64,000 nucleotides of DNA, taken from NCBI RefSeq assembly GCF_002979775.1, contig NZ_PCPR01000003.1, forward strand, positions 124,001-188,000, read 5' to 3'. A program made the position numbers and the translations under genes. Under the pieces are notes generated by a model, which saw nothing but the letters and a program-made list of their open reading frames with translations, searched no databases and had not been told where the DNA came from. The stretch is from Arthrobacter sp. MYb23 (GTDB lineage: Bacteria > Actinomycetota > Actinomycetes > Actinomycetales > Micrococcaceae). This document shows, one piece after another, positions 19,107-44,916 of this stretch. Numbering within the stretch: position 1 is the first letter of the stretch; every line of letters begins with the position of its first letter.

Positions 19107-20084
19107 ATGACTGAATACCGACGCCTTGGCCATTCCGGACTGACTGTCTCAGCTGTAGGGCTGGGCTGCAATAACCTGGGCCGCGCCAATACTCCCACGG
19201 AGTCCCAGGAAGGCACGGACGCTGTTGTCCACGCCGCGCTTGATGCCGGGGTGACCTTCTTCGACGTCGCCGATGTTTACGGCCGCGAGCCCGGCCTGAG
19301 CGAAGTCATGCTGGGCAAGGCGCTGAAAGGCCGCCGTGATGATGTGGTCATCGGCACCAAGTTCGGCATGGACATGCGCGGAGTCAACGGCAACGATTTC
19401 GATGCCCGTGGTTCGCGCAGATACATCGTCCAGGCCGTGGAAGCTTCCCTCCGCCGTTTGGATACTGAGTGGATTGACCTCTACCAGTTCCACACCCCGG
19501 ATCCGCGCACGCCTATCGAGGAGACGCTGGCAGCCTTGGATGACCTGGTATCCAGCGGCAAGGTCCGGTACATCGGCCACTCCAACTTTGCCGGCTGGCA
19601 GATCGCCGAAGCCGAGTATGTTGGCCGGCAATCAGGTGGCGTCCGCTTCATTTCGACCCAGAACCACTACAACCTCCTGGACCGCCGCGCCGAGCTCGAA
19701 GTGCTGCCGGCGGCAGGAGCTTTCTCCCTGGGCGTCCTTCCGTACTTCCCCTTGGCCAACGGGCTGCTCACCGGAAAATACTCAGCGGGCAAGGCTCCCG
19801 AAGGTTCCCGTTTGAGCCACACGCGCACCAACCTGGTGCACGACGCCGATTGGGAGCAGCTGGGCCGCTTCGGCCAGTTTGCCAAGGAACGGGATATCAG
19901 CGAGCTTCAGTTGGCCTTCTCCTGGTTGGCCGCACAGCCGGGAGTCAGCAGCGTCATCGCGGGAGCCACCCGTCCCGAGCAGATCCGCGAGAACGCCGGG
20001 GCAGTGTGCTGGGTACCTACTCAGGAGGATCGCGCGGAACTGGATGAGATCTTCCCGCGGGCACCGAAGGTCGCTCTCTTCTAG
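19107..20084 (+). CDS. Aldo/keto reductase
   Basis: 325-residue (beta/alpha)8 NADPH oxidoreductase. The catalytic tetrad is present: Asp53 and Tyr58 in FFDVADVYG, Lys85 in VIGTKFG, His129 in LYQFHTPD. The NADP-binding loop near the C-terminus reads SSVIAGATRPEQIREN. The physiological carbonyl substrate is not deducible. It is a single-gene unit with its own -10 box and a 17-bp terminator hairpin. Confidence 0.93.
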   Translation: MTEYRRLGHSGLTVSAVGLGCNNLGRANTPTESQEGTDAVVHAALDAGVTFFDVADVYGREPGLSEVMLGKALKGRRDDVVIGTKFGMDMRGVNGNDFDARGSRRYIVQAVEASLRRLDTEWIDLYQFHTPDPRTPIEETLAALDDLVSSGKVRYIGHSNFAGWQIAEAEYVGRQSGGVRFISTQNHYNLLDRRAELEVLPAAGAFSLGVLPYFPLANGLLTGKYSAGKAPEGSRLSHTRTNLVHDADWEQLGRFGQFAKERDISELQLAFSWLAAQPGVSSVIAGATRPEQIRENAGAVCWVPTQEDRAELDEIFPRAPKVALF

Positions 20085-20111
20085 CCCTCTCTCACACAAC
20101 AGCCCTTAAAC

Positions 20112-20152
20112 CGGAACGCTCTCTCACCAAGGTGAGAGAGCGTTCCGTTTTA
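20112..20152. terminator. Terminator between aldo/keto reductase and fatty-acid operon
   Basis: Seventeen-bp perfect stem CGGAACGCTCTCTCACC / GGTGAGAGAGCGTTCCG with a 2-nt loop, followed by TTTTA on the plus strand. Its right arm is also the first unit of the tandem repeat that follows. Confidence 0.85.
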
Positions 20153-20277
20153 GGCCGCGGGACGTGAGAGAGCGTTCCGTTTTAGGCCGCGGGACGTGAG
20201 AGAGGGACGGTTTAGGCCGCGGGACGTGAGAGAGGGACGGTTTAGGCCGCGGGACGTGAGAGAGGGACGGTTTAGGC
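20132..20277. repeat. Tandem array of 30-32-bp units ending at a stop codon
   Basis: Five head-to-tail units: two of 32 bp (20132-20163, 20164-20195) starting GTGAGAGAGCGTTCCG, two of 30 bp (20196-20225, 20226-20255) starting GTGAGAGAGGGACGG, and a partial fifth (20256-20277). Each full unit ends TTTAGGCCGCGGGAC. The last partial unit contains, on the minus strand, the TAA stop of the fatty-acid oxidation gene. Confidence 0.9.
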
Positions 20278-22416
20278 AGGTGCGGATGCGACGCCAGGGG
20301 CGAGGAACCGCTTGCCGTTGACCCGCTCGGAAGCTCCCACTCTGTCCAGGTACGGGGTGATGCCGCCCAGGAACATAGGCCATCCGGCTCCCATGATGAC
20401 GCAGAGGTCAATGTCTTCAGGACCGGCTACGACGCCTTCTTCCAGCATCAGCCCGATTTCCTCGGCCAAGGCGTCCTGGGTGCGCCGGAGGACTTCCTCG
20501 CCAGCGGACGGGCTGTTGCCGAAGGACAGGAGGGCCAGCGTCTCGGCCGGGATGACGGGAGTTCCGTCCGGTCCCGGAGCCCAGAGGCTCTTCACGCCGT
20601 TGTCTATGAGTTTCTGGAGGTTTTGCGAGACAGGGAACCGTTCGCCGAACGCAGCATGCAGTGACTCCTGGACGTGTTGTGCCACCGGCAGGCCAACCAT
20701 GGCACTCAAGGTGAAGGGCGACATTGGCAGGCCCATGGGACGCAGGGCGCTGTCCGCAACCTCTGCCGGGGTGCCTTCGTCGAACGCAGCGATGACTTCT
20801 CCCATGAGACGGAGAAGGATGCGGTTGACCACAAAGGCCGCAGCATCCTTGACCAGCACGGCGGTCTTCTTGAGTCCCTTGGCCAGCTCGAAGGCGGTGG
20901 CGAGGACGGCGTCATCGGTCTTGGGTGCCCGAACGATCTCCAGGAGCGGCATGACAGCTACGGGGTTGAAGAAGTGGAAGCCCACCAGGCGTTCGGGGTG
21001 CTTCAGGTCTTCTGCCATAGCCGTTACGGACAGTGAGGACGTGTTGGTGGCCAGGATGCATTCGGGGGAAACGATCGCTTCAACCTCGGCGAAGACTTGT
21101 TTCTTGATGTGCAACTCTTCGAAGACGGCTTCGATGACGAAGTCGGCGTCGGCAAAAGCCTCCTTGGAGACCGAACCTGTGATGAGCGCTTTGGTCCTGT
21201 TGGCAGCGTCCTGTTTGATGCGATTCTTCGCCAACATCTTGTCGACTTCGGCGTGGACATAGGCCACGCCCTTGTCCACGCGTGCCTGGTCGATGTCCGT
21301 CATGACCACGGGGACTTTCAGCTGCCGGGCGAACAGCAGTGCCAGCTGGCTGGCCATGAGCCCTGCACCCACCACGCCGATTTTGGTGACCGGGCGGGCC
21401 AGCTTACGGTCAGGCGCGCCTGCGGGGCGCTTGGAGCGTTTCTGGACGAGGTCAAGGAACGCGTACACCGTTGAGCGGAACTCGTCAGTCTGCATGAGAC
21501 CTGCGAGGGTCTCGCACTCGAGTTCGGCGGACTCGGCTTGGGTCATGGTGCGGTTGGCTTCCATGACATCCAGGACCTTGCCGGGAGCGGGGGAGGCGTT
21601 GGAGGTCTTGGACTCCACAAATGCCCGTCCTGCAGCGACCGCGGCTGCCCATCGGTCCCTGACTGCTTCATCAGTGACATCAACCGAGTTCTTCCGCTCA
21701 GGCTTTACGTGGCCGGAGATGACCCGGGCTGCCCATGCGAGCGACTGTTCCACGAAGTCGGCGGGTTCGAACATGGCATCCGCTACGCCGAGCTTGTAGG
21801 CCTCCGGCCCGGTGAGGGTCCGGTTGTTGCTGAGGGGATTCTCGATCATGACCTTGACGGCATTCTCCGGGCCGATGAGGCGGGGCAGGATGTAGACGCC
21901 GCCCCAGCCTGGTACCAGGCCAATGAACGCTTCAGGGAGGGCAAGTGCGCCAGCGCCCGTGGAGACGGTGCGATACGTGGACTGCAGGGCGATCTCCAGC
22001 CCGCCACCCAAAGCAAGCCCGTTGATGAAGGCGAAGCTCGGAACACCCAGGTTGGCCAAGGTGCTGTAGACGGCATGGCCAAGCTGCGCCATCCAGAGCC
22101 CATGCTCGCGTTCCTTGAGTGTTTTCACTGCCGAAAGGTCTGCGCCAGCCACCAGGAAGTAGGGCTTGCCCGTGACGCCGACACCCACAATCTCTCCACG
22201 TGCAGCCCGCGTCTTCAGGTCCTCCAGGACGCTGCCGAGTTCCACCAGAGTGTTGGGGCCCAGTGTTGTGGGCTTGGAGTGGTCCAGGCCGTTGTCCAGG
22301 GTGATCAGCGCAAAGGTTCCGGTACCGCCCGGCAGCTGGATGTCCTGAACGTAGGAGTGGGTCACCACTTCATCCGGGAAAAGGGCGGCAAGTTTTTGGA
22401 ATTCGGCGGCGCTCAT
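20272..22416 (-). CDS. Fatty-acid oxidation complex alpha subunit (enoyl-CoA hydratase / 3-hydroxyacyl-CoA dehydrogenase)
   Basis: 714 residues. An N-terminal crotonase domain carries NGLALGGGLE and LPEAFIGLVPGWGG with the two catalytic glutamates; from about residue 345 a 3-hydroxyacyl-CoA dehydrogenase follows, with the NAD site IGVVGAGLMASQLA and VGFHFFNPVAVMPLLE around the catalytic His. It performs hydration and dehydrogenation of the beta-oxidation spiral and pairs with the adjacent thiolase. ATG overlaps the thiolase stop (ATGA). It could be named fadB or fadJ. A repeat array overlaps its stop. Confidence 0.93.
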   Translation of the reverse strand: MSAAEFQKLAALFPDEVVTHSYVQDIQLPGGTGTFALITLDNGLDHSKPTTLGPNTLVELGSVLEDLKTRAARGEIVGVGVTGKPYFLVAGADLSAVKTLKEREHGLWMAQLGHAVYSTLANLGVPSFAFINGLALGGGLEIALQSTYRTVSTGAGALALPEAFIGLVPGWGGVYILPRLIGPENAVKVMIENPLSNNRTLTGPEAYKLGVADAMFEPADFVEQSLAWAARVISGHVKPERKNSVDVTDEAVRDRWAAAVAAGRAFVESKTSNASPAPGKVLDVMEANRTMTQAESAELECETLAGLMQTDEFRSTVYAFLDLVQKRSKRPAGAPDRKLARPVTKIGVVGAGLMASQLALLFARQLKVPVVMTDIDQARVDKGVAYVHAEVDKMLAKNRIKQDAANRTKALITGSVSKEAFADADFVIEAVFEELHIKKQVFAEVEAIVSPECILATNTSSLSVTAMAEDLKHPERLVGFHFFNPVAVMPLLEIVRAPKTDDAVLATAFELAKGLKKTAVLVKDAAAFVVNRILLRLMGEVIAAFDEGTPAEVADSALRPMGLPMSPFTLSAMVGLPVAQHVQESLHAAFGERFPVSQNLQKLIDNGVKSLWAPGPDGTPVIPAETLALLSFGNSPSAGEEVLRRTQDALAEEIGLMLEEGVVAGPEDIDLCVIMGAGWPMFLGGITPYLDRVGASERVNGKRFLAPGVASAPA

Positions 22417-38577: not shown

Positions 38578-38653
<76 letters not shown>

Positions 38654-38710
38654 ACATGCTGCCAGCCGGGCATATGCCTGGCTAACAACTTCAAACAAGT
38701 TGCCTTGTTC

Positions 38711-38785
38711 TGGTGGGCGATACTGGGATCGAACCAGTGACCTCTTCCGTGTCAGGGAAGCGCGCTACCGCTGCGCCAATCGCCC
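38711..38785 (-). tRNA. tRNA-Val(GAC), copy 1
   Basis: Acceptor GGGCGAT/ATCGCCC, anticodon loop CTGACAC (GAC), T-loop GGTTCGATCC, discriminator A and encoded CCA. Confidence 0.97.
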
Positions 38786-38808
38786 GTTACCGGGTCCTTC
38801 AATAGGAG

Positions 38809-38881
<73 letters not shown>

Positions 38882-38938
38882 ACATGCTGCTTGCCAGGCA
38901 TATGCCTGGCCCTCAACAACAAACAAGTTGCCTTGTTC

Positions 38939-39013
38939 TGGTGGGCGATACTGGGATCGAACCAGTGACCTCTTCCGTGTCAGGGAAGCGCGCTACCGCT
39001 GCGCCAATCGCCC
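38939..39013 (-). tRNA. tRNA-Val(GAC), copy 2
   Basis: Identical to the first Val(GAC) copy, with encoded CCA. Forms the second Gly-Val module of the operon. Confidence 0.97.
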
Positions 39014-44678: not shown

Positions 44679-44757
44679 AAGTCGTCACCACATGTTACGA
44701 AAATGGCCCGGGAATAGCCGGGGCACCTTCGTAGTTGTGGCAGAATAACAACACACA

Positions 44758-44911
44758 TACGTGCTCCGGGGTCGGTGTAAGTCCGAACCGGCGGTTATAG
44801 TCCGCGACCCGCGAGCCATTGGCTTCCAAGAAATTGGATGTTCGGTGGCAGACGGTTGAACTGGTGAAATTCCGGTACCGACAGTTAAAGTCTGGATGGG
44901 AGAAGCACGTA
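44758..44911 (+). promoter_or_regulatory. FMN riboswitch (RFN element)
   Basis: Canonical conserved blocks are present: GGGGTCGGTGTAAGTCCGAA and CCGGCGGTTATAGTCCGCGACC near the 5' side (the second in two parts), then CTGGTGAAATTCCGGTACCG, ACAGT and AGTCTGGATGGGAGAAG. The closing P1 stem is TACGTGCT (44758-44765) with AGCACGTA (44904-44911). It senses FMN and normally turns off riboflavin synthesis or uptake. Confidence 0.97.
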
Positions 44912-44916
44912 CAGTC

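Follow-up and report, generated by a model that had tools for sequence, protein, structure and literature searches.

The repeats that come nearest in kind to those reported here are the REP/BIME elements (GTAG REPs and RAYT; REPINs). Like our arrays, they are short, dispersed extragenic repeats that often lie downstream of genes or between convergent genes; both form head-to-head palindromes, come in species-specific types, occur near stop codons and serve as targets of insertion sequences (IS). The IS elements that target REPs include the IS3-family members IS1397, ISKpn1 and ISPsy8, and ISPsy8 is described as an element with a 3-nt direct repeat that targets REPs (PMC1525189). A second group, the CGTC REPs, is mostly alpha-proteobacterial and has no dedicated transposase known; it resembles our arrays in its head-to-head dimers and in having no known mobiliser. 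In one study, CGTC REPs are characterised by a terminal motif carried on a stem of 8-9 bp and by a negligible share of head-to-tail dimers (PMC3733652). Rho-utilisation sites are similar to the arrays in that their sense strand is C-rich and G-poor soon after the stop codon; to our knowledge, a fixed core, a 32-nt phase and dialects are not features of such sites. MIRU-like VNTRs of mycobacteria, too, are gene-adjacent tandem repeats of variable copy number that overlap stop codons, with units longer than those of the arrays, and we know of no dialects or head-to-head rule among MIRUs. No description of 32-nt arrays was found among the best matches listed from the open-access literature; in the RepRanger study, Arthrobacter livingstonensis is listed in a table, where its figures are 5,512 and 705 (PMC12306157).

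The arrays differ from REP/BIME elements in that they consist of in-phase, same-orientation 32-nt units with a conserved core and a diverging spacer. REP/BIME is the nearest kind, yet the arrays are neither GTAG REPs nor CGTC REPs. They have the general traits of REPs, being dispersed, extragenic and downstream of genes, and are palindromic only where units face each other (32 of 82 clusters). The GTAG tag is absent from the per-genome consensus strings of 10 genomes, and RAYT (PF01797, E<=0.001) was found in 2 of 198 genus genomes (one over the cut-off) and not in the window genome, G000; in a positive control, PF01797 was found in 5 of 14 reference genomes. Several dialects carry a core flanked by GACG, which is CGTC on the other strand. 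No unpaired terminal CGTC was found on a stem of 8-9 bp closed by a loop of 4-5, and the gaps between facing cores vary, being most often 13. Compared with the CGTC REPs as characterised in PMC3733652, the flanks of our cores mostly pair and vary (RWYS, see below), and same-orientation arrays are common.

The array between the reductase and fadJ-type genes

The window, that is the whole 64,000-nt stretch of Arthrobacter sp. MYb23 DNA that was analysed, contains seven 9-nt cores between an aldo/keto reductase gene and a fadJ-type gene, two facing five (Table 1). The five facing cores read GTGAGAGAG and follow each other in steps of 32, 32, 30 and 30 nt. Exact GTGAGAGAG occurs seven times in the window against 0.46 expected, a number reached in 0 of 100 shuffles, and a chance origin of the window array is excluded.

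Table 1. The array and its two neighbouring genes in the window
Feature	Position	Strand	Remarks
Aldo/keto reductase gene	19107..20084	+	ORF; PF00248, E 2.4e-68; TAG stop, 2 nt before first core
Core CTCTCTCAC, unit 1	20087..20095	+	Sense to reductase gene
Core CTCTCTCAC, unit 2	20119..20127	+	32 nt after unit 1 core; part of left hairpin arm
Head-to-head junction	20112..20147		16-bp hairpin, arms 20112-20127 and 20132-20147, loop CAAG, then TTTT (+ strand)
Facing unit 1	20132..20163	-	32 nt; core 20132-20140; sense to fadJ
Facing unit 2	20164..20195	-	32 nt; core 20164-20172
Facing unit 3	20196..20225	-	30-nt version; core 20196-20204
Facing unit 4	20226..20255	-	30 nt; core 20226-20234
Facing unit 5, partial	20256..20277	-	Core 20256-20264; holds fadJ stop 20272-20274, 7 nt from core
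fadJ-type 3-hydroxyacyl-CoA dehydrogenase / enoyl-CoA hydratase gene, multifunctional	20272..22416	-	ORF; 3HCDH_N (PF02737), 3HCDH (PF00725), ECH_1 (PF00378)

An earlier note on this DNA had described the right arm of a 17-bp terminator as the first of five 30-32-bp direct repeats. The five repeats are evident from their cores and from TRF (20149-20277, score 219, period 30, 94% matches), and they do come in two versions, GTGAGAGAGCGTTCCG in units 1-2 and GTGAGAGAGGGACGG in units 3-5. The array is larger than the note had it: two further cores lie opposite the five, and the left arm of the hairpin is thus a repeat unit as well. The stem of the supposed terminator is real (16 bp, or 17 bp if a 2-nt loop is allowed), and the 59-nt hairpin stretch has a folding energy of -37.8 kcal/mol (z -9.3) on the + strand and -39.8 kcal/mol (z -7.7) on the - strand; a strict terminator scan of 19700-20700 (at least 5 T in 8) found no terminator, the tail of the hairpin being TTTT only. 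Searches with Rfam covariance models yielded no gathering-level match at the array, for which reason a known RNA family was rejected; of the ten matches at E up to 10, all far below gathering scores, nine are to microRNA families and one is to a Bacillus antisense RNA. A CRISPR was dropped as a candidate because the repeated part measures 9-15 nt and adjacent spacers are alike.

When the same junction was compared in 30 genomes (G000 included; G and L numbers denote genomes and loci), the element was present in 8, with 1 to 5 fad-sense units per genome having it. Five fad-sense cores are found in G000, three in G102 and two each in G082, G070 and G008, so that copy number varies between relatives. 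The growth by slippage that the earlier note had proposed is supported by this variation and by a comparison of G000 with G023. The latter covered 35 aligned places, of which 8 were chance single cores and 4 carry an IS in G023; among the 23 left, 9 are of equal length and 14 differ in a rough mapping that ignores gaps. Eight of these 14 differences come to within 2 nt of a multiple of 32, more than an even spread would give (p = 4e-4), and six do not; as the G023 stretches were chosen for their arrays, the comparison cannot measure gain and loss. With copy number varying and dispersed copies present (see below), the opposite picture of an array constant in number and confined to one site fails.

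The stop codon is a different matter. The TAA of the fad gene does lie inside the last unit, as had been noticed, and the further claim that the repeat took it in is contradicted by G023, the nearest relative by fadJ protein: this genome is without the element at the junction and has a fadJ stop TAA at the same residue, and the repeat therefore did not create or capture the stop codon. The close relatives G023, G033, G098 and G061 have an unrelated hairpin here (judged by eye), which indicates that no single site needs the element. In G034, the junction contains a compensated core pair, CTCCCTCAC/GTGAGGGAG, and the same sequence is found in Paenarthrobacter sp. AR 02 (L089). The 3' flanks are shared between L054 and G008, L089 and G034, L055 and G063, L092 and G067, L056 and G076, and L057 and G084. 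Two observations made 3' of fadJ may be added. The G034 locus L142 mixes dialects, its hairpin having CTCCCTCAC/GTGAGGGAG and its outer units GTGAGCGAG, and loci L061, L070 and L135 (G023) carry, by eye, another type of palindrome, GAGTTTTTG... facing ...CAAAAAC, possibly a second dispersed terminator-like family.

A dispersed family with genome-specific core dialects

The search for dispersed copies that the earlier note had proposed found dozens of them in the window genome and a family that is genus-wide. G000 (5.19 Mb in 60 contigs) contains 94 exact GTGAGAGAG against 19 matches of the reversed control, and CTCTCTCACNTCCCNNNNNCTT with up to 3 mismatches gave 149 matches against 23. Five contigs of G000 (1.18 Mb), picked after matches were known there and hence a fair sample for spacing and not for density, yielded 72 units in 24 arrays, a single unit being listed for each of two arrays. 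Pairs of exact cores in these 1.18 Mb are spaced by 32 (19 pairs), 64 (10) and 96 nt (4), with none at any other distance within 10 to 100 nt. Nine other genomes were sampled where CTCNCTCAC dimers were already known, and no density is derivable from them.

Within the genus, the dimer CTCNCTCAC-N23-CTCNCTCAC is present in 147 of 198 genomes, with up to 270 copies per genome and 2 control matches in all, and a looser triple of CNNTCAC at 32-nt phase was detected in 154 of 196, with control counts that are nonzero in array-rich genomes. As counted by eye from the match numbers, the triple occurs in 24 of the 51 genomes that have no exact-core dimer (five or more matches in 16) and is missing from 27; matches exceed the control in G035 (26 vs 3), G074 (28 vs 1) and G130 (30 vs 0), and we infer that these triples belong to the same family. 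Among 245 genomes of the taxonomic family, the dimer is carried by 13 of the 18 that belong to the own genus and by 5 of the 15 of another genus, g45, and by none of the remaining genera. Seven of 394 genomes of the class match, namely G000, G002 and five with single matches that we take as chance. A viral collection of 2.9 million contigs contains the CTCTCTCAC dimer in 6 stretches and the CTCGCTCAC dimer in 0, which is near chance by our own estimate. One record was found in a plasmid collection, a 1.35-Mb replicon of Arthrobacter sp. StoSoilB13 with 76% identity over 57% of the query. This plasmid-classed replicon (L320) carries five in-phase TTCTCTCAC cores; by eye, a separate hairpin adjoins them. 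The array in the window is best explained as one locus of a clade-wide dispersed family of modular 3'-end elements.

From 70 non-redundant units of ten genomes, in which the core is exact by selection and N and the flanks are free, we derived the extended core RWYS-CTCNCTCAC-NT (R = A/G, W = A/T, Y = C/T, S = C/G); in the spacer that follows, the middle is AT-rich (T or A) and lies between two GC-rich stretches. The middle base N of the core is nearly uniform per genome in most genomes sampled and thus constitutes a dialect. It is G in 48 of 49 exact cores of G087, C in 21 of 23 in G032, and T in G165 (20/21), G204 (20/21), G203 (25/26), G200 (21/24), G020 (41/48), G098 (30/34) and G088 (30/36). 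In G000, the 83 exact cores, which include isolated chance cores, are mixed (T 44, G 17, A 11, C 11), and the agreement in N between loci is only 0.64 there and 0.71 in G098. More distant dialects are of the CTCCATCAC, CGCTCTCAC, TTCTCTCAC and CCCGGTCAC types; those seen at IS sites are CTCCATCAC in G158 and CGCTCTCAC in G185.

The spacers are far less uniform, with identities of 34-52% between loci of one genome, 36% between genomes and 27% by chance. In G087, G165, G204 and G020, within-genome identity amounts to 34-37%, and recent whole-unit copying therefore does not explain the dialect in these genomes; in six of the ten genomes, spacers from the same genome resemble each other slightly more than spacers from different genomes do, so that some whole-unit spread is possible.

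Conservation of the core was assessed in the middle units between exact cores 64 nt apart, that is in units not selected on their core. In 53 non-identical, partly overlapping triplets, the core mismatches in 3.8% and the interior in 13.6% of positions; at the RWYS positions, bases are exchanged within their class (25.5%). After exclusion of 17 triplets with identical neighbours, the mismatch counts in units with no facing core within 300 nt are 8 of 208 for the core and 55 of 442 for the interior (p = 3e-4), and those in units with facing cores 8 of 216 and 84 of 459. The core is thus conserved without a facing core, and hairpin pairing is not the only constraint on it.

Placement at gene ends and a putative reader of the core

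Clusters that contain two or more exact cores number 82, of which 32 are facing (CTC then GAG), 47 one-way, one back-to-back and two complex; where both orientations are present, the arrangement is head to head in 32 of 35. No exact facing core lies within 260 bp in 47 of the 82 clusters, and since both arms of the window hairpin are themselves family units, the picture of a single terminator arm that expanded is not supported. The 36 facing gaps are most commonly 13 nt (8 cases), followed by 45 (4), 23 (4) and 37 nt (3).

Relative to genes, whose ends and gap classes come from our own crude ORF caller, the sense strand of the arrays usually carries CTC. The nearest upstream gene is on the same strand in 69 of 94 arrays and on the opposite strand in 25, some of which are halves of facing pairs. 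The start falls exactly at +2 from the stop codon in 14 of the 69 sense arrays; G000 contributes 8 of its 13, and the nine other genomes together 6 of their 56. This is an excess over uniform starts within 29 nt (14/48, p = 3e-10) that also holds for the nine genomes alone (6/39, p = 0.002). The stop codon of these +2 arrays is TAA or TGA in 13 of 14 cases, which fits RW, the exception being the TAG of the window. Owing to its 30-nt units, the fad side of the window was scored in this survey as 3 nt from the stop instead of the true 7, which leaves the count of 14 unaffected. Convergent gaps hold 37 of 91 arrays as compared with 140 of 870 background gaps (odds ratio 3.6, p = 2e-7), and divergent gaps are underrepresented (12 of 91 vs 212 of 870, p = 0.018). 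One-way arrays between co-directional genes are sense in 18 and antisense in 5 cases (p = 0.011). A sense ORF of at least 40 codons ends nearby in 4 of the 17 antisense and divergent cases (14% by chance), and missed ORFs therefore mostly do not explain them.

We assign a probability of about 0.5 to the reading that the arrays are transcript-end or insulating elements whose core would be recognised by a putative, sequence-specific host factor. The sequence features point to a reader of the core that is sensitive to phase and strand, and the position of the arrays suggests a role at transcript ends. Units follow the stop codon in phase, and two arrays that meet face each other and can form a strong hairpin. 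A host factor may recognise the core, its specificity having drifted from one species to another; several in-phase bound sites together with the junction hairpin would end or shield transcripts, and bound arrays may thereby keep neighbouring, especially convergent, genes apart. Slippage or unequal exchange would add and remove units. Against this reading speak the 25 of 94 arrays behind an opposite-strand gene, the 5 antisense among 23 co-directional one-way arrays, the 12 of 91 clusters in divergent gaps, the mixed dialect of G000, the 6 of 14 length changes that are off multiples of 32 and the unrelated hairpins that close relatives have at the window junction. More tentatively, and by analogy, the arrays might form an orientation-dependent transcript-end system in which a putative protein or guide RNA binds tandem sites through the species-dialect core and facing arrays insulate convergent genes. 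Such an action would resemble that of the tandem terminator boxes that lie behind eukaryotic rRNA genes.

The arrays represent a genome-scale regularity in a common soil genus, with a 32-nt phase, a place at gene ends and species dialects, and the conservation of the core together with its dialects points to a putative reader. Hairpins of high-GC Gram-positive bacteria are often without U-tracts, and the arrays could give access to the way in which these bacteria terminate transcripts or keep them apart. Thanks to the dialects, core recognition is testable.

Rho loading, mobility and hairpin growth as alternatives

Sense arrays without facing cores (n = 25) contain 38.7% C and 22.7% G, 23.4 YC dinucleotides per 96 nt, and have a mean MFE of -27.1, compared with 31.6% C, 29.8% G, 15.1 YC and -35.6 at 300 other gene ends sampled from the same genomes. 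These arrays have the composition of Rho sites (C-rich, G-poor, unstructured, about 70-100 nt), and those with facing cores (n = 26; C 32.7%, G 23.8%) have it to a lesser extent. One could thus view the arrays as general Rho loading sites, C-rich, G-poor and weakly folded 3'UTRs that load Rho at the stop without any special factor. Their starts near stops are in keeping with this, as is their length: 134 of the 147 arrays with at least two units have 2-4 units, or 64-128 nt, which is about the size of a rut site. Rho sites are degenerate, however, and would leave the exact 32-nt phase, the dialect base and the head-to-head rule unexplained; moreover, the arrays with facing cores fold strongly (mean MFE -40.5). 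We regard Rho loading as a doubtful explanation of the arrays.

A transposase encoded elsewhere might instead read the core, and the arrays would then be REP-like non-autonomous mobile elements for which gene ends are tolerated sites. Their dispersed and mostly extragenic occurrence, head-to-head palindromes, species dialects and mosaic presence at one site fit this proposal, as does their use by an IS. The IS in question is an IS3-family element of about 1.3 kb with the ends TGCGGTCGTATGG...GACGACCGCA and IS3-type OrfA (PF01527) and OrfB (PF00665); it resembles IS1397, ISKpn1 and ISPsy8 in these proteins and in its 3-nt target duplications, and differs from them in its target, this Arthrobacter family. 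All four G023 copies (L284, L307, L280 and L282) are inserted within arrays. Three of them show a 3-nt duplication of the target next to a core, which is degenerate in one case; the fourth shows none. OrfB relatives at E<=1e-90 are encoded in 23 of 196 genus genomes, and none at this threshold in G000. Of the 14 examined copies whose OrfB identity is 85% or more (nine further close copies fall outside the sample, and locus L296, with no readable motif, was left out), 13 are in arrays, the exception being that of G169, and these close copies adjoin cores of several dialects. None of 10 examined copies with at most 78% identity is in an in-phase array; one of these, L311, has isolated core-like 9-mers about 100 nt away. 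Among partial copies with 81-84% identity, the one in G067 is flanked by arrays, and those in G004, G163 and G032 show none. The IS3-family element targets the arrays and is a user of them, not the array itself, in parallel to the targeting of REPs by ISPsy8 as described in PMC1525189. Mobility of the arrays themselves is disfavoured by the little likeness between spacers of different loci in one genome, by the scarcity of Y1/RAYT proteins given above (PF01797 in 2 of 198 genomes, one over the cut-off, none in G000), on account of which RAYT was rejected as mobiliser, and by the fact that an unsystematic look noticed no target-site duplication of the array element. We consider a REP-like origin unlikely, to about the same degree as Rho loading.

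The junctions of facing arrays have a regular structure. Among facing cores that are exactly complementary, all ten junctions with a gap of 13 were aligned. Pairing amounts to 95.8% in their inner helix, with nine core pairs that are complementary by selection; outside the core, 92 of 100 of its cells pair and 7 of 10 pairs have changed on both sides. In the outer helix, the paired share of cells is 66%. The covariation score of the whole structure is reached in 0 of 500 shuffles and beats all slides, and few pairing intermediates are found; the covariation may reflect palindrome-correcting template switches, which fit as well as selection. Across 28 innermost facing pairs, 96 of the 112 RWYS cells form Watson-Crick pairs. 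A run of at least four T follows 9 of 56 hairpin arms, compared with about 4% of background windows (p = 4e-4), and 47 of 56 arms are without one. The arrays thus possess the stable hairpin of an intrinsic terminator where units face each other only, and generally not the U-tract after the stem. That they are ordinary bidirectional intrinsic terminators, with arms that grow by slippage and a core kept only by arm pairing, is improbable: the 16-bp stem and TTTT of the window, the excess of T runs and the 8 of 14 length changes near multiples of 32 agree with it, and against it stand the arms lacking a T run, the negative strict scan of the window region, the conservation of the core without a facing arm, the one-way arrangement of more than half of the clusters at exact-core level, and the separate hairpins that, by eye, adjoin arrays L005, L007 and L009.

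As for DNA uptake, the density of the arrays is far below that of known uptake sequences (DUS/USS); the ComEC family (PF03772) is near-universal in the genus (192 of 196 genomes) and for this reason uninformative on a link to competence.

Whatever their function, the arrays are natural VNTR markers and an IS landing site. Two other features of the window may be recorded. A 228-bp tandem duplication at 38580-39013 (96% matches) doubles two tRNA genes on the - strand, giving the pairs 38581-38653/38714-38785 and 38809-38881/38942-39013, and an FMN riboswitch (RF00050, 95.7 bits) is located at 44757-44912 on the + strand.
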